In this document: piece after piece, positions 98 to 23,997 of the stretch
How the letters are laid out: each line of letters begins with the position of its first letter
Position numbering within the stretch: the first letter of the stretch is position 1
NCBI GenBank assembly: GCA_026397205.1
Contig: JAPLVH010000022.1
Span: forward strand, 25,686-59,262
Length of the DNA stretch: 33,577 nt
Direction: 5' to 3'
Origin: Candidatus Berkelbacteria bacterium
GTDB lineage: Bacteria; Patescibacteriota; UBA1384; XYA2-FULL-43-10; CAINNR01
Made by a program: the position numbers and the translations under genes
Notes under the pieces: generated by a model
What the model saw: only the letters and a program-made list of their open reading frames with translations
Told to the model about the DNA's origin: nothing
Databases searched by the model: none

Positions 98-208
98 AAA
101 CAAATTAAGAATTAAGATCTCAGAGTTAAGAATCTAATTTAGAATTAAGAATTGATTATCAACCGAAACTTCCATAATTCTTAATTCTGCATTCTTAATT
201 CTTAATTA
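98..208 (-). repeat. Dispersed palindromic repeat family R2, copy a
   Basis: An AT-rich element of about 110 bp built from repeats of AATTAAGAATT and its complement, so it is an imperfect inverted repeat. Reverse-complemented it aligns along its length with copies at 3411-3517 and 31033-31147, including a shared interior (GGAAGTTT, GATAA, CAATTCTTAATTCTA) and the end CTGAGATCTTAATTCT. It overlaps the last codons and TAA stop of the beta-subunit gene. Confidence 0.8.
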
Positions 209-920
209 TTTCTCCTTCCGGATAAACTTTTTCCATCTTCTCTAGAAAATCAAAACTTTTTTTGGCGTTGGTTTTCCAGTTTGTCGGACAGATTGAAAGA
301 ATTTCAACGAAGGAGAAAGAGTTGTTTTTGATTTGATTCTCAATCGCGCGAGTTAAAATTTTTTCTAGCATTATTGGATTTGAAACACTGGCCCTAGCGA
401 TATAGGCCGAACTTTTGGCGATTTGCCGAACCAATTCCGGACCGTGGAATGGATCACCGAGAGTTTTGACATCTCGACCATCGGGCGTCGTCGTTGTAAT
501 TTCACCGGCCAAAGTTGTTGGTGCCGCTTGACCGCCGGTCATTGAGTAGTCGGTGTTGTTGATTAAAATTGCGCTGATTGGATTATTTCGATAAGCGGCG
601 TGCAAAAGCGATTGAAGACCGATGGCATAACCGCCACCGTCGCCCATCATCGCCAGAACAATTCGTTTATCCCGCGCCATCTTAAAACCAACCATCATCG
701 GGATTGATCGGCCATGGTGACCCTGAACTGTGTCAAAATTGAAATAATTCCAGGACAAAAGCGAGCAGCCGATATCAATTCCGAGTGTGACTTTTTTTTG
801 GATTTTCATTTCGTCAATGACAAAACCTAAATGCCGCAAAGCAATTGATTGGCCACAACCGGGACAGAACAAACTAGGTTTCGAATTTTGGTTAATGCAA
901 TTTGGAGTGATATTTTTCAT
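195..920 (-). CDS. 2-oxoacid:ferredoxin oxidoreductase, beta subunit (TPP-binding)
   Basis: A 241-residue thiamine-diphosphate-binding subunit. Near the N-terminus CPGCGQS is the conserved cysteine motif of PorB/KorB-type subunits. GDGGGYAIGLQ at about residues 94-104 is the GDG TPP/Mg2+ motif and is followed by the conserved NN pair (INNTDYSMTGGQ). The complex decarboxylates a 2-oxoacid such as pyruvate to acyl-CoA, reducing ferredoxin. It lies 161 bp downstream of the alpha subunit, with repeat R1a between them, and upstream of gamma. The stop codon and last residues (IIKN) fall in repeat R2a. With PduL and acetate kinase nearby, pyruvate is the likely substrate, but that is inference. Pyruvate and 2-oxoglutarate enzymes are hard to tell apart by eye. 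Confidence 0.9.
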   Translation of the reverse strand: MKNITPNCINQNSKPSLFCPGCGQSIALRHLGFVIDEMKIQKKVTLGIDIGCSLLSWNYFNFDTVQGHHGRSIPMMVGFKMARDKRIVLAMMGDGGGYAIGLQSLLHAAYRNNPISAILINNTDYSMTGGQAAPTTLAGEITTTTPDGRDVKTLGDPFHGPELVRQIAKSSAYIARASVSNPIMLEKILTRAIENQIKNNSFSFVEILSICPTNWKTNAKKSFDFLEKMEKVYPEGEIIKN

Positions 921-927
921 AAAAAAC

Positions 928-1087
928 TAAATTATTCTAATTGTTCTAATTGTTCTAATTATTCTAATTATTCCCTGCCCGCCGTTGCCGGCGATGGCAG
1001 GCGGGTAAAAAAGCATCAAATACCAATTTCCCTTTTAGACATTCGGAGTTGGGATTTTCTTAGGCAATTAGAATAATTAGGTTAATT
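928..1087. repeat. Dispersed repeat family R1, copy a, between alpha and beta subunit genes
   Basis: About 160 bp bounded by inverted AATTATTCTAATT / AATTAGAATAATT arms, with tandem TTCTAATTG units on the left. A GC-rich hairpin in the middle has CCTGCC and GGCAGG arms and ends GGCAGGCGGGTAAAAAA. The same architecture recurs at 9802-9956. The right end overlaps the stop codon of the minus-strand alpha gene, as copy b does with the PEGA gene. Confidence 0.8.
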
Positions 1088-2113
1088 AGAAATTAGATTT
1101 ACGATTTCCTCCGGTGTAAATCCTTCGGCCGGTTTGAAAACCGGGATAAGTTTAGCGGCAATTTCCGGGATTTTGTAGACGACAAGTCGGGAAAATTGTT
1201 CGAATGCCGACTCAAAGATAAAAATCTTTTTTGCTGATTTGATTGATTTTCTGATTGATCCGCAATCGAGCGGTCGCAAAGTGATCGGTCGAACTAATCC
1301 GATTTTATTTTTTCTCTCTCGAAGTTGGTCAACAGCGGTTTTTGCCGCCGCAGCAACGGAGCCGTGAGCAATGAAAATTGTTTCGGCACCGACAACTTTA
1401 TAACATTCACATTCGGCAACACGCGGAATCATATTTTTATAATCATCAATGTTTTTTCGCAAAACCTTGGCGAACTCCGGCTCCGAACCGTAGCAGTTGC
1501 GGATAAATGTCGGTTTTTTGGCCTCCTCTTTCAATATTTTTGTTGCCGGATAAGGTTTAAGCGGGCGGGAAAGTTCAGAGGAAATGCGCGATTTCCCAAG
1601 ATAGCCGTCGGACAGAAGAATCGTTGGGAACCGGTAGCGCCAGGCGGTGGAGAAAATTTTTGCCGACAGCGAATAGCATTCGGCAACAGAGGAGGCAGAG
1701 TAGACGATCCGCAGGCCGTCACCGTTGCCGCCAAGCGCCGCTAAATTTACCTCCTGCTGCGAATAAATGACCGTGCCGGTTGACGGACCGCCGCGCTGGC
1801 CGATGATGGCGACAAAGGGCAATCGTTCATTTTCTGCCATCGAAATCGGATCTTGCATCAGAACATGGCCGATACCGGCGGTGGCGGTGAAGGCCTTTTT
1901 GCCAGCGAGTATCGCGCCGATAACAGCAAATCCGGCCGAAGTTTCGTCTTCGGTTTGGAGATATTTCAGATTTCGGTCTGTTTGTGCCGACTTTATCCAG
2001 CCCTCCAAAATTTCAGTTGTCGGAGTAATCGGGTAGCCAAAAAACATTTCGGCGCCGGCATCAACCGCGCCTAGAACAACAGCTTCGTTTCCGGTTAGAA
2101 ATTTTTTTGTCAT
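1082..2113 (-). CDS. 2-oxoacid:ferredoxin oxidoreductase, alpha subunit
   Basis: A 343-residue alpha subunit. The N-terminus has the FFGYPITPTTEI motif (YPITP) typical of PorA/KorA-type subunits. It is followed by TEDETSAGFAVIGA and a segment with GQRGGPSTGT, both conserved in the pyrimidine-binding/domain II region. The C-terminal part (IFIAHGSVAAAA, RPITLRPLD) is the usual transketolase C-terminal-like domain. It is the first gene of a minus-strand run alpha-beta-gamma. Reduced ferredoxin made here needs an outlet such as a hydrogenase, which is not in the window. The length is normal for alpha subunits that lack the fused gamma domain. The 3' end runs into repeat R1a. Confidence 0.9.
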   Translation of the reverse strand: MTKKFLTGNEAVVLGAVDAGAEMFFGYPITPTTEILEGWIKSAQTDRNLKYLQTEDETSAGFAVIGAILAGKKAFTATAGIGHVLMQDPISMAENERLPFVAIIGQRGGPSTGTVIYSQQEVNLAALGGNGDGLRIVYSASSVAECYSLSAKIFSTAWRYRFPTILLSDGYLGKSRISSELSRPLKPYPATKILKEEAKKPTFIRNCYGSEPEFAKVLRKNIDDYKNMIPRVAECECYKVVGAETIFIAHGSVAAAAKTAVDQLRERKNKIGLVRPITLRPLDCGSIRKSIKSAKKIFIFESAFEQFSRLVVYKIPEIAAKLIPVFKPAEGFTPEEIVNLISN

Positions 2114-2335: not shown

Positions 2336-3403
2336 TTAGATTTGTGTCAGTTTCCTGGCAATAGCCAACTCCTCATCCGGTTTAACAACCGCAATTTTGA
2401 AATTTAGAAAATCAAGATTTTTACAAATTTTCCGCCGGATTACCGCTGAACCAAAACCAATTTCGCCGGAAAAAGCAACGGTGTCAACACCGCCAAGTGC
2501 GGCGGCGTAAGCGCCGATATATTTTGAAATTCGATAGCAAAAAATTTCAATTGCCAATTTCGCATCGTCGGGATTAGCGTTTTTCGCCGAACGATCGTTG
2601 GCAATTTTGAAATTAAGGTCCTCGATTTTTTCGTTTGCCAGAGAAAGAAGTGTCAGCATTGCACCGGAAGTTTCCGAGAGACCGGCAAGGCCGGAGTTAT
2701 TCTCAATCAAATCCCGAGTTTTTTTGCTGCCGATTTTCTCGACCAGATACAAAATGACGCCGGGATCAATGTCGCCGCTACGAGTTTGCATTGGCAGACC
2801 CTCAAGAGTTGTAAAGCCCATCGAGGTGTCAATCGGTCTGCCACAGTCAATTGCCGCCAGTGAACAACCGGCTCCTAAATGAACGGAGATCAATTTTTTA
2901 TTTCGAATCGGGTCAACTTGGTCCAGAATCCAGCCATGAGAAATTCCATGAAAGCCGAATCTTTTTATACCGAATTCGGCGGCAATTTTTTTTCCGATCG
3001 GATAAATTTTAGCACGCTCCGGCAAGTTAGAAAAAAAAGCGCTGTCGAAAAAAGCAAAGTGCTGTGCAAAAGGGATTTTGTCGAGGAGAAATCTGATAAC
3101 TTTTTCTGCTTGTGGATTGTGGTGCGGTGCTAGTTCGGCGAATTTCCTGATGATTTGAATTGTTGGTAGCGTTATTGGCATCATGTCTTTGCCCTGATCA
3201 CCACCGTGGACAACTCGATAACCAACCTTAGTAATTTCGGGAATTTTATTTTTTATTTCTGGCAGGAGAAGATTCATCGCTTGATCGTGGTTGCGGATTT
3301 TTTCACCAATACCAGAAAATCTGCCGGAAGAAATCACCTCCAGATTTTGGTCAAACAACGAATATTTTAAGGACGACGAACCGGGGTTGATGACTAAAAT
3401 CAT
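2336..3403 (-). CDS. ackA: Acetate kinase
   Basis: A 355-residue ASKHA-fold kinase that makes ATP and acetate from acetyl phosphate and ADP. The N-terminal VINPGSSSLKYSLF is the acetate kinase signature 1 with its conserved Asn. YRVVHGGD is the next substrate-site motif, FGFHGISHGW the conserved FHG.SH motif, and VHLGAGCSLAAI the phosphate loop. It continues with the TRSGDIDPG motif. The usual late GGIGEN motif appears as FSGEIGFGS. It is somewhat shorter than the roughly 400-residue family norm, with the loss spread through the C-terminal half. It lies next to the pduL-like gene, so together they would form the acetyl-CoA to acetate branch fed by the oxidoreductase. Repeat R2b separates it from pduL. 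Confidence 0.93.
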   Translation of the reverse strand: MILVINPGSSSLKYSLFDQNLEVISSGRFSGIGEKIRNHDQAMNLLLPEIKNKIPEITKVGYRVVHGGDQGKDMMPITLPTIQIIRKFAELAPHHNPQAEKVIRFLLDKIPFAQHFAFFDSAFFSNLPERAKIYPIGKKIAAEFGIKRFGFHGISHGWILDQVDPIRNKKLISVHLGAGCSLAAIDCGRPIDTSMGFTTLEGLPMQTRSGDIDPGVILYLVEKIGSKKTRDLIENNSGLAGLSETSGAMLTLLSLANEKIEDLNFKIANDRSAKNANPDDAKLAIEIFCYRISKYIGAYAAALGGVDTVAFSGEIGFGSAVIRRKICKNLDFLNFKIAVVKPDEELAIARKLTQI

Positions 3404-3410
3404 AAAACTG

Positions 3411-3517
3411 AATTATGAATTAAGAATGCAGAATTAAGAATTACAGAAGGGAATTTATTTGGGGAAATTCACAATTCTTAACCAGGTTCTAAATTCTGAG
3501 ATCTTAATTCTCAATTA
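3411..3517 (+). repeat. Dispersed palindromic repeat family R2, copy b
   Basis: It begins GAATTAAGAATGCAGAATT and ends CTGAGATCTTAATTCT, the same order of sub-blocks as R2c (31033-31147) and the reverse complement of R2a. It supplies the last residues (IIEN) and stop codon of the pduL-like gene on the minus strand. Confidence 0.8.
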
Positions 3518-4018
3518 TTTTTCCAATATCGCCTTCGTTTGCACCGGCGGCATTGCCTTCGTCGGTGTCAAGGTGAAGTCGGAGACAGAAATTCTTATCA
3601 ATTTTAACCACAGTGTCGGCAAAAATTACTTCTCCGCGCGAACTTTTAATCCTAACTTTTTCCAGCCGATCTTCGGATAAATTAAACTCTTTGGCTTCCG
3701 CCCTAGAGGCGTGAATATGACGTTTGGCGATTATCGCTGCGCAGCGACTAATTTCCCCAGAGTTGCCGACAATTTTAATTACGCTGCAACCCGATAACGA
3801 GCTAGATTCATAAGGCGCGGAAATACCAATAGTCCGGCAGTCGGTGGCTGAAAGTTCAACTTGGGTTTCCTCCCGAAAAGGGGAAAGGAATCTGGCCTCA
3901 CGCTCGGCGGTCGGCCCGAGACTTTCTTATATTCTTCACCGGCGAACAAAAAATCATAATCGGTTTTTGACAGATGAATGTGGCGAGCGGAAATTTCAAT
4001 AATAATTTTATTTCCCAT
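3504..4018 (-). pseudogene. pduL: PduL-type phosphate acyltransferase, disrupted by a small deletion and frameshift
   Basis: Frame 1 from ATG 4018 gives MGNKIIIEISARHIHLS, the N-terminal PduL signature with its HIH zinc ligands, and runs to about GEEYKKV. After that the homologous reading continues in another frame: SLGPTAEREARFLSPFREET, then QVELSATDCRTIGI, AKRHIHAS (second His motif) and LHLDTDEGNAAG, ending in IIEN and a stop at 3504-3506. The family normally has about 20 more residues (a Q-P-G-rich stretch) between these two parts, so a short out-of-frame deletion at about 3910-3930 explains both the gap and the shift. The total is 515 bp, not a multiple of three. The ORF track shows only the first half plus an out-of-frame tail. 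Intact PduL converts acyl-CoA and phosphate to acyl phosphate, the missing link between the oxidoreductase and acetate kinase. Sequencing or assembly error cannot be excluded. Confidence 0.8.
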
Positions 4019-4020
4019 AA

Positions 4021-5130
4021 TTATTTAATTAAAGATTCACCGGTCATCGCCGTCGGTTTTTCTATTTTCAAAATATCAAGAATTGTCGGCGCAATATCAG
4101 CAACCGTTCCTTTTGATTTTATCACAGACGGGACAAAGTTGGAAACTTTTTTTTGAAATTTTTCACCGGCAATTACAAACGGAATAAAGTTTTTCCGCTT
4201 GGAATTTTCAATCATTTGCTCGCCGCCGCCGATTGCCGCAGTAATAATTAGGACTCCGGAATTTTTTAGAACCGCGGTAAATATTTTTGCTAAACTTTGA
4301 TCAATTTTTTTGATTGCCTTGACTACTTGACCAAACGACTCAGTTTCCACTGCCTGTCTCAAGTCGGAAATATTGGCTCTGACAAAGACATATTTTTTTG
4401 AATTAACGGCATCAGTAATTTTCGCCTCAACATTGACCAGTGACGAATTCGAAATTAAAAATTGGTTTAGATTATTTTCAGCAATCACTTCGTTCAAAAT
4501 CGAAGTCGGATTTTCATCGGGAAAAATCGTCAGGATATTTTTTTCTATCGCCGGTGGAAATCGAAATGGCAGAAGCGAGGCAAAAACTGAGATTTTTTTA
4601 AATATCTTGCCGTCGGATAAAATTCTTAGCGCCAGATTTTGAAGACAAACGTTGCCAAAATTTAAAATCAAAACACCATCATTATTTTCAATTTCCAAAT
4701 TCAATTCGCTTGAAATGCTAATTTTTTCATCAGCAATTCCGCTTGATCCTGCCAATTTTTTGATTGCCGATATTGTGTTGTTGGATAATTTATCTTTAGT
4801 GTCGGCAAAAATCAAAAGGCGTGAGTTAAGAGTTGAAATTTTCTTAATAATTTTTTCAAGACACGGATTTTTTTCAAAACTGTTTTCAAAAAGCATAGCG
4901 GCAATTTTCTCTTTTTCCGGCAAAATAATTCGACCGGATTCGAGTGACGCTTGGTTTGATTTCGCAGTCGCGTTTTTTAGCGACTCCAAAATCTGAAAAA
5001 AGAAATTTTGACAGAGTAAATTAAAAACCTCCGGATTTGCACTGTGAATTGCATTGCCGGCAAAATTCTGGCTATAACCCCAGCTGTCAATTGTTAAAAA
5101 TACGATTGGATTTATTTCTAATTTGGTCAT
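4021..5130 (-). CDS. Degenerate paralogue of phosphoglycerate mutase (alkaline phosphatase fold, catalytic motifs lost)
   Basis: 369 residues. Start and end mirror the upstream GpmI: FLTIDSWGYSQNFAGNAIHS matches IILDGWGIGPVWGGNAISS, and DIAPTILDILKIEKPTAMTG matches NIAPTILEIMKIEKPEEMTA. The core motifs are gone. There is no NSETGH serine motif, the DMVGH metal motif is replaced by DLRQAVE, and ITADHGNAEEM has become ITAAIGGGEQM. About 170 residues are missing, chiefly from the phosphotransferase half. The start is six bases after the gpmI stop, so the two are co-transcribed. I infer a non-catalytic binding or structural role, or slow decay. The open frame with no stops over 1.1 kb argues for retained function. 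Only two bases separate it from the pduL-like gene. Confidence 0.8.
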   Translation of the reverse strand: MTKLEINPIVFLTIDSWGYSQNFAGNAIHSANPEVFNLLCQNFFFQILESLKNATAKSNQASLESGRIILPEKEKIAAMLFENSFEKNPCLEKIIKKISTLNSRLLIFADTKDKLSNNTISAIKKLAGSSGIADEKISISSELNLEIENNDGVLILNFGNVCLQNLALRILSDGKIFKKISVFASLLPFRFPPAIEKNILTIFPDENPTSILNEVIAENNLNQFLISNSSLVNVEAKITDAVNSKKYVFVRANISDLRQAVETESFGQVVKAIKKIDQSLAKIFTAVLKNSGVLIITAAIGGGEQMIENSKRKNFIPFVIAGEKFQKKVSNFVPSVIKSKGTVADIAPTILDILKIEKPTAMTGESLIK

Positions 5131-5136
5131 ATTGGG

Positions 5137-6762
5137 TTAATTATTATTTTGAATTGAAATTGACGAGTCGTTGCTGACGATTTTCCGCAGATTACTGCCG
5201 ACAATTCCCGACCGACCGGCGATTAGCGATGCGGCTGTCATTTCCTCCGGTTTTTCGATTTTCATAATTTCCAAAATCGTCGGCGCAATATTGCAAAGCG
5301 CGCCGTTAAATTTCAATTGGATCCCTAGAAAGTGAATATCTTTCGAGACGATCACAAACGGAACCGGATTTGCGGTGTGCTCGGTTTGCGGTTTGCCGGT
5401 CGCCGGGTTGATCATCTCCTCGGCATTTCCGTGGTCGGCGGTGATTATTGTCAGATAATTTTTTGCCGAAAGCGCAACAATTAATCGGCCGAGACATTGA
5501 TCAACTGACTCAACTGCCTGGACGGCGGCGGAAAAATTTCCGCAGTGTCCGACCATGTCGGCATTGGCGTAATTTATAACCAGAAAATCAAAATTATAAT
5601 TCAGAGCGGCGATCGTTTTGCTGGTCAATTCCATTGCGCTCATTTCCGGCGTCAAGTCGTAAGTCAAGACCTTCGGCGACGGCTGCAAAATTTGCTTCTC
5701 GCCGGCAAACGGTTTCAAATTTCCGCCGTCAAAAAAATAGGTGACATGGGCGAATTTTTCCGTTTCGGCGCTGTGGTATTGAGTTAAATTATTTTGGCTT
5801 AAAACTTCAGCCAGCGAATTTTTGATTATCACCGGTTCAAAGGCCTGGATGCCGAGCGGATTCGGATCACGGGTGACAAAAGTCAAAAAATATAAATTTT
5901 TCAGAATTTTTCGGTCCGGCATTTGCTTTATTGGACCGCCGACAAACGCCTGCGAGATCTGTTTTGCTCGGTCGGGACGAAAATTGAAAAAGATGACGGC
6001 ATCATTGTCATCAATAGTCACTTTCTCACCACCCTCCGGAATGATAGTTTGCGGCTCGATAAATTCGTCATTAATATTTTTAAGATAACAGCGAGAAATT
6101 GCCTCGCGAACGGTTTTTGAAACTTCCGCTTCGCCCTTGGTCAGCGAGTTGTAAGCCCGCGAAGTTCGGCCCCAATTTTTATCTCGGTCCATGGCAAAAA
6201 AGCGACCGCAGATACTGTTAATCTGGCCGATACCGATTCTTTTCGTCTCCGCCGTTATCTTTTCAAAAATTGACAAAGCCGAGGTTGGATCGGAATCGCG
6301 GCCATCGGTGAATAGATCAAGACAGACCCTAGCTATTCCGTTTTGTTTCGCCATCTGTAAAAGTTTATAGAGGTGATTCAGACATGAGTGGACGATACCG
6401 TTGCCAGCGAGACCAATGATGTGCAAACGCGAATTATTTTTCTTCACATGTTCAAAAGCGGCGAGAATTTTTTCGTTCTTGAAAAACTCGCCATTTTCAA
6501 TTTGACGATTAATATAGGGCAAGTCCTGCGGCACGACTCGACCGGCGCCGATGTTTAGGTGTCCGGTCTCGGAATTTCCACCGGTGCCAGCAGGAAGTCC
6601 GACCGCTTCGCCTGAAGCCAGAAGCTCGGTTTTGGGAAAAGTTCGCCACCAAAAATCAAAGTTCGGTTTTTTAGCGCTAGAGATCGCATTTCCACCCCAA
6701 ACCGGGCCAATTCCCCAGCCATCCAAAATAATAAGCGCAACTTTTTGTCTTGTCTCGTTCAA
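5137..6762 (-). CDS. gpmI: 2,3-bisphosphoglycerate-independent phosphoglycerate mutase
   Basis: 541 residues. It interconverts 3- and 2-phosphoglycerate in glycolysis using two Mn2+ ions and a phosphoserine. LIILDGWG has metal ligand Asp14, and GGNSETGH holds the catalytic Ser64. DGRDSDPTS and the MDRDKNWGR motif are substrate-site blocks, and ANADMVGH and TADHGNAEEM carry the late metal ligands. All are intact, unlike in the downstream paralogue. The start is TTG at 6762: GGAGGG lies three bases upstream, and no ATG exists near the conserved N-terminus. A promoter-like TTCCAT-N17-TATAAT lies at 6797-6825. It heads a minus-strand run gpmI, paralogue, pduL. A short extra tail follows the family's usual end. 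Confidence 0.95.
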   Translation of the reverse strand: MNETRQKVALIILDGWGIGPVWGGNAISSAKKPNFDFWWRTFPKTELLASGEAVGLPAGTGGNSETGHLNIGAGRVVPQDLPYINRQIENGEFFKNEKILAAFEHVKKNNSRLHIIGLAGNGIVHSCLNHLYKLLQMAKQNGIARVCLDLFTDGRDSDPTSALSIFEKITAETKRIGIGQINSICGRFFAMDRDKNWGRTSRAYNSLTKGEAEVSKTVREAISRCYLKNINDEFIEPQTIIPEGGEKVTIDDNDAVIFFNFRPDRAKQISQAFVGGPIKQMPDRKILKNLYFLTFVTRDPNPLGIQAFEPVIIKNSLAEVLSQNNLTQYHSAETEKFAHVTYFFDGGNLKPFAGEKQILQPSPKVLTYDLTPEMSAMELTSKTIAALNYNFDFLVINYANADMVGHCGNFSAAVQAVESVDQCLGRLIVALSAKNYLTIITADHGNAEEMINPATGKPQTEHTANPVPFVIVSKDIHFLGIQLKFNGALCNIAPTILEIMKIEKPEEMTAASLIAGRSGIVGSNLRKIVSNDSSISIQNNN

Positions 6763-23376: not shown

Positions 23377-23997
23377 ATGAAAATTACAAGAAAAATAAAT
23401 ATGTCTCCACATATTATTTCAATCGATGATTTTAAGGAAAAGATTGGGGGTTATTCTCCAGAACGAGCGTCTGAATTTCATGCGGAATCAGCAAAATTGG
23501 CGGACATAGAGTTTGGTGGGGCGGTAAAAAATACAGCAAATGGCAAAGTTATTTTTCTAGCCGGAGGAAGTGCCTCAGGAAAAACAGAATATTTACACAC
23601 TCATTTGGTTGATGAAGACGCGGTTATCTTTGATAGCACGTTGTCCAGTCAAGAAGGTGCTAGAATTAAAATTGGAAAAGCAAAAAAATACAACAAGAAT
23701 ATTGAGTTACATTTTGTAATCCCCGATGATGTCAAAAGAGCATTTACTGCTTTTTTGGGCAGAGATAGAAAATTCAACGATGCAGTATTCTATAATACTC
23801 ATAGCGATTCAAGATCTACTTTGCTCTGGGTTGCTAATAACTACAGTGAAATCACAATCAAGGTAATTGAAAGCTACTACAGAAAAGACAAATTAAAATA
23901 TAAGGAAATTGAATTAAAAAACAAGGAAGAAACACTTGAATATATTAAGTCAATTCAGTATAATACAAAAGAGATAATAAAGAAAGTGATATCATGA
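23377..23997 (+). CDS. Zeta-toxin-like P-loop kinase
   Basis: 206 residues. FLAGGSASGKTEYL at about residue 65 is a Walker A motif, followed by a DAVIFDSTLSS block in the place where zeta kinases have D(S/G)T. Zeta toxins phosphorylate UDP-N-acetylglucosamine, blocking wall synthesis, but no epsilon-like antitoxin is visible, so nucleic-acid or other kinase activity is equally possible. It overlaps the DUF2188 gene by ATGA (23994-23997), forming a two-gene unit between the hisS remnant and hisS. The codon choice is more AT-rich than hisS, in line with transfer. ATG 23401 is an alternative start. Neither has a clear ribosome site. Confidence 0.65.
   Translation: MKITRKINMSPHIISIDDFKEKIGGYSPERASEFHAESAKLADIEFGGAVKNTANGKVIFLAGGSASGKTEYLHTHLVDEDAVIFDSTLSSQEGARIKIGKAKKYNKNIELHFVIPDDVKRAFTAFLGRDRKFNDAVFYNTHSDSRSTLLWVANNYSEITIKVIESYYRKDKLKYKEIELKNKEETLEYIKSIQYNTKEIIKKVIS

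Follow-up and report, generated by a model that had tools for sequence, protein, structure and literature searches.

Why should a bacterium with a genome of only 0.82 Mb (29 contigs, Patescibacteria) hold, directly behind an intact gene for phosphoglycerate mutase of the iPGM type (gpmI), a second iPGM-like gene without a recognizable active site? The question arises from a window of 33,577 nucleotides, the whole stretch of DNA analysed here. It extends to a class of Patescibacteria in which genomes of 0.6 to 1.2 Mb have shed much of their metabolism and still hold one glycolytic enzyme in two forms, a live copy and, next to it, a dead one.

The locus and the residues lost from C369

The iPGM-like gene lies on the minus strand at 4021..5130 and has an ATG start and 369 codons, whose product is referred to here as C369. 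It follows the stop codon of gpmI (5137..6762, minus strand, TTG start, 541 aa) after a gap of 6 bp, and C369 is 172 residues shorter than the product of gpmI, its putative partner. The latter carries 18/18 of the checked catalytic and substrate residues, and its closest relatives are found in one Berkelbacteria MAG and in Patescibacteria MAGs. Coordinates, length, spacing and the absence of the catalytic motifs are all as given in a preliminary description of this DNA. Next after the C369 gene on the same strand come pduL (phosphate propanoyltransferase/phosphotransacetylase; 3507..4017, PF06130), ackA (acetate kinase; 2336..3403, PF00871) and the genes for the alpha subunit (korA-type; 1082..2113, PF01855 and PF17147) and the beta subunit (korB-type; 195..920, PF02775) of a 2-oxoacid:ferredoxin oxidoreductase, each assigned by the domains named together with synteny. 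The run gpmI-C-pduL-ackA-korA-korB, with C standing for the paralogue group of C369, occurs in six genomes, that of the window (G000) and G002, G003, G004, G006 and G007.

Three further observations on the window can be recorded here. The pduL gene is split into two reading frames near position 3915, in its first third; this may be an assembly error or a genuine frameshift, and the other five genomes with the run have an unbroken frame at the equivalent place. GC3 is lower in the C369 gene (0.34) than in gpmI (0.50) and in most genes of the window. At 23377-23997 (plus strand) there is a weak match to a zeta-toxin/P-loop kinase family, 22.1 bits against a curated cut-off of 22.3, with a GGSASGKT motif present.

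Against TIGR01307 (pgm_bpd_ind), C369 scores 88.3 bits and fails the cut-off of 330.65, whereas gpmI scores 606. A Pfam search matched C369 to the Metalloenzyme family (70.6 bits) and gave no iPGM_N hit. BLASTP aligns C369 with gpmI at E = 3e-16 over the C-terminal part and 8e-6 over the N-terminal part, and a family profile made in this analysis from live copies gives it a score of 144 bits (E = 1.7e-44) over three collinear blocks, with 50 shuffled sequences reaching at most 2 bits. The N-terminal block (residues 4-106; 4813..5121, minus strand; profile positions 7-118) covers the start of the phosphatase domain and the first hinge, and keeps D15 and the GNA motif, the phosphoserine being lost. 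The middle block (residues 130-229; 4444..4743, minus strand; profile 232-337) is what remains of the transferase domain's second half. The C-terminal phosphatase block (residues 232-369; 4024..4437, minus strand; profile 380-528) retains the DIAPTIL..MTG.SLI tail and has R258/E262, A299/I300 and K311 in place of metal ligands. Two internal deletions, of ~113 profile positions before the middle block and ~42 after it, remove the region of H123, R185 and R191 and the K336 loop (B. stearothermophilus numbering).

The residues checked are the metal ligands and substrate contacts of iPGMs, which are established for the family. Two alignments agree on the metal ligands: S64, the phosphoserine nucleophile, corresponds to A56 or a gap, D402 to R258, H406 to E262, D443 to A299, H444 to I300 and H462 to K311, leaving 1/7, namely D14 (D15 in C369). 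For the substrate set, which we take to be H123, R153, D154, R185, R191, R261, R264 and K336 in B. stearothermophilus numbering, the same letter is found only at D154 (D113, beside a deletion); the equivalents of R261 and R264 are G159 and C162. The whole protein contains a single histidine. With 6/7 metal ligands and nearly all substrate residues lost, C369 is almost certainly a dead iPGM paralogue, as the preliminary description had proposed, and the second alignment recovered none of the lost ligands that would have spoken for an intact metal site. Judged from its residues, catalysis by the iPGM mechanism should not be possible, with the two metals, the phosphoserine and phosphoglycerate all predicted to be beyond its reach. 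Since the substrate residues are gone, a role as a phosphoglycerate sensor is unlikely as well.

AlphaFold with an alignment of 44 sequences yields a model of all 369 residues with a pLDDT of 89 and a pTM of 0.87. Without homologues the pLDDT is 40 and there is no usable model, so that the confidence of the former comes largely from the family alignment. The best PDB matches to the model are iPGMs (E about 1e-20), with a TM-score by query length of up to 0.80 for the S. aureus enzyme. The model predicts a folded, shrunken iPGM, in the sense of compatibility with the fold rather than proof of folding. We also noticed that chain C of PDB 9wn4, a 27-residue peptide from the C-terminus of an iPGM, matches residues 346-368, in the tail that is the best-conserved part of the dead copy.

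Three old paralogues and the gradient of loss in clade C

iPGM-like frames gathered across the class of the window (Berkelbacteria-type Patescibacteria, up to 55 genomes) fall into three old paralogues, A, B and C. The 18 checked residues are all present in nearly every A and B copy (E335 is replaced by A in two copies and by D in one), and C occurs in 19 genomes. In a tree with 18 outgroup sequences the branch that splits C (19 rows) from A, B and the outgroups has an SH-aLRT of 100, and the split has the same support in the tree without outgroups; B is not cleanly monophyletic in the outgroup tree. C369 groups in clade C, the adjacent gpmI is a B copy, and the A copy of this genome lies elsewhere. 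C369 is therefore not a recent duplicate of gpmI, and the earlier view that the adjacent gene was its parent was wrong. Two canonical mutases with essentially all catalytic residues intact, A and B, are both maintained next to each other in much of the class (L081 and other A copies; L062-L147). A separate observation concerns the A-type gpmI of G005 (L075:4227-5927), which is interrupted by a single in-frame TAA, the homology continuing on either side of it. A serine after the GWG motif, tried as a hallmark of C, was dropped as common to many A and B copies.

A search of the relatives for the tandem pair found C as the next gene downstream of an intact A or B copy in 19/19 C-bearing genomes, mostly of B and in family f9 of A, in keeping with the pairing first described in the window. 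The typical distance from the upstream iPGM is -14 to +34 bp, a range that leaves out G006 and G018, whose automatically chosen starts are unreliable. Arrays of three genes in the order A-B-C are present in G018, G019 and G031.

The C copies form a gradient. Of the 19, 13 are not metal-dead (that of G001 is cut by the contig end). All 18 residues are kept in G006 and G033, and a single Arg to Lys change is found in G004. The equivalent of R153 (B. stearothermophilus) is replaced by L, M, I, T, Q, E or V in 10/13, and G011 has in addition lost the equivalents of H123, R261 and R264. The same arginine is kept in 129/137 iPGMs gathered more widely, and of the eight exceptions seven are C copies and the last is a tandem copy from another family. 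Metal ligands are lost in six C copies, those of G000, G005, G007, G008, G012 and G015 (3/7 in G015).

The long branches of the dead copies mean that a tree does not fix their exact place inside C, and trees with relatives held together were tested instead. Constraining the window copy to the C copies of its own family was not rejected (p-AU 0.607) and fitted slightly better, and the same outcome was obtained for the C copies of G007 and G004. Intact metal sites are found in C copies of the same families as the dead ones: G002 and G003 in that of G000, G004 in that of G007, and G029 and G037 in that of G015. Since intact and dead copies share families and the constrained trees are not rejected, the sequences point to at least four independent losses of the metal site, in families f1, f2, f3 and f9. 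The third copy of G012, left out of these four, has its best match in the B of its own genome (31% identity, across a gap of 232 bp), and may be a fifth loss or a separate duplicate of that B. All genomes with a dead C keep an intact A or B.

Retention of the dead copies and their possible roles

The six dead C copies are open frames of 369-534 codons with zero stops. Neutral simulation from live C gave a mean of 6.4 stops at 75% identity, with no run out of 200 giving zero, and 18 stops at 31% identity, the level of the window copy; indels in neutral decay would break frames beyond the simulated stops. The five most degraded copies keep 54% of the live-invariant columns outside the active site and 22% inside it, and eight columns survive in all five where chance would leave 2.4 (p = 0.0004, or 0.047 when a single one of two sister copies is counted). 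Such site-specific co-retention indicates selection on the protein and argues against a frame kept open solely for translation. Taken from these comparisons of sequences, C369 is very probably a pseudoenzyme retained by selection on its protein. The preliminary description, which had suggested as much, is borne out both by the open frame against the neutral expectation and by the pattern of retention, and no stop of the kind expected from decay appeared in the dead copy of any relative.

Constraint on the dead copies is weak. With dS saturated in every pair, the comparison relied on dN and identity alone. The single close pair available for live C (G002/G003) shows it to be conserved to the same degree as A and B: identity is 77.3% for C, 77.8% for A and 75.0% for B, with dN of 0.164, 0.154 and 0.172, respectively. 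In pairs that include a dead copy dN is 0.78-0.98, compared with 0.32-0.41 for B, so that dead copies evolve 2-2.5 times faster than their B neighbours. A close relative of the window copy was sought in the genome contigs, in the relatives set and in G009, whose contig ends inside gpmI, and none was found.

What selection might act on is suggested by the position of the gene. C369 and GpmI would be made from one transcript by coupled translation, and C369 might then act as a non-catalytic protein partner that stabilises GpmI or tunes it allosterically in the manner of a prozyme. The pairing would act at the point of entry into the pyruvate-to-acetate branch, for which the next genes code. By analogy, a folded dead paralogue encoded beside the live enzyme would most economically act by contact with it, and that C369 works through GpmI is a reading to which we give slightly short of an even chance, in view of where the gene lies and of precedents that include the trypanosome prozyme. 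Two points count against it: the characterised iPGMs are monomeric, so that no ancestral interface is known that could have been reused, and the adjacency of C and GpmI could simply be the inherited order of an A-B-C array. A broader version, doubtful though worth stating, takes clade C as a lineage-wide non-catalytic subunit of a heteromeric iPGM, in a role older than the loss of catalysis, which would have left the active site free to be discarded independently in several families.

A function unconnected with GpmI, with C a neofunctionalised non-mutase that has another protein or ligand as its target or is moonlighting, and a mere operon neighbour of gpmI, we consider unlikely, if by no means fanciful. 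In its favour, fold and sequence constraint are maintained. Moreover, the substrate arginine is replaced and the metal ligands are kept in 10/13 of the non-dead C copies, which fits a change of function before the loss of catalysis, and in an independent family (f42) one tandem copy has its substrate site altered and its metal site intact. However, no new residue signature is common to the dead copies, nearly all of whose shared columns are canonical, and the parts deleted differ from one dead copy to another.

Slow pseudogenisation, in which a redundant third mutase decays where A and B cover for it and has been caught still open, would account for the stepwise erosion from the C copies of G006 and G033 with all 18 residues, for the long branches of the dead copies, for the intact A or B in every genome that has one, and for the GC3 of the window copy (0.34 vs 0.50 in gpmI). 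It is nevertheless improbable, given zero stops in six dead copies against the ~6 to 18 per 369 codons predicted for neutral decay, losses in at least four families with not one frame break, and retention that is site-specific and avoids the active site.

It is very unlikely that the frame is open only for ribosomes to reach pduL-ackA-kor, through coupling or the avoidance of polarity, with the amino acids free to vary. The tight spacing on both sides of C and the loss of 172 codons from the window copy with the frame preserved would suit such a placeholder. Against it, the five most diverged copies still score 144-219 bits to the family profile, the same structural residues are retained across lineages, the sequence is predicted to be compatible with a full iPGM-like fold, and the operon genes are not beside C in every genome with a dead copy (G008 has just Kor, at a greater distance). 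That C369 still works as an enzyme through a rebuilt active site is scarcely credible: it retains Asp15, one of the canonical metal ligands, and Asp113, which aligns with D154, but there is one histidine in the protein, no in-register Ser nucleophile, no second metal site, and the substrate arginines and lysine are lost or deleted.

Comparison with known systems

Dead paralogues of metabolic enzymes are already known as a kind; what appears to be new is that one occurs among iPGMs, that the loss happened independently more than once, and that the copies form a graded series. We found no report of an iPGM pseudoenzyme or inactive paralogue in the open-licence library searched, and in a study of glycolytic genes across the CPR phosphoglycerate mutase comes up only on account of its patchy presence (PMC7304191). 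Because C copies within a single class range from intact to fully dead, they provide a natural series in which to follow the order of loss of substrate binding, metals and whole segments while the fold is kept.

The nearest relative in kind is GpmI/iPGM itself (TIGR01307; PF01676 and PF06415). C369 is homologous to it in three collinear blocks, has iPGMs as its closest structures and shares the predicted two-domain plan; it differs in falling below the TIGR01307 cut-off, in giving no iPGM_N hit, in lacking the metal, nucleophile and substrate residues, and in being 172 residues shorter. An independent parallel to clade C is found in family f42 (G071, G089 and G106), where a tandem iPGM with substrate-site losses (H125, R155, D156 and R187 replaced by Q/K, E, G and E, numbered as in the window gpmI) stands beside a canonical one. 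There the altered copy (L268:2414-4099, L269:2473-4260 and L270:6256-7875) is upstream, whereas C is downstream, all metal ligands are kept, and the genomes belong to another class of the phylum.

The characterised iPGMs are monomers (PMC5382265), and if C binds GpmI, an enzyme family known as monomeric could turn heteromeric. Were the subunit reading true, these reduced bacteria would gain a mutase that is regulated or scaffolded at the point where it meets acetate-forming energy metabolism. The closest functional precedents are the AdoMetDC prozyme of T. brucei (PMC5201418) and the dead subunit of trypanosomatid deoxyhypusine synthase (PMC3663545), each shown by experiment to bind and activate its active partner. 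As in these systems, a dead paralogue of an enzyme of central metabolism is kept beside the active copy; partner binding is something we infer for C369, whose family is described as monomeric. C369 also differs in being bacterial, in belonging to a conserved gene run and in coming from a clade whose active sites were lost repeatedly, and if C does bind GpmI, it would be a bacterial and repeatedly evolved addition to the few known dead-paralogue activators.
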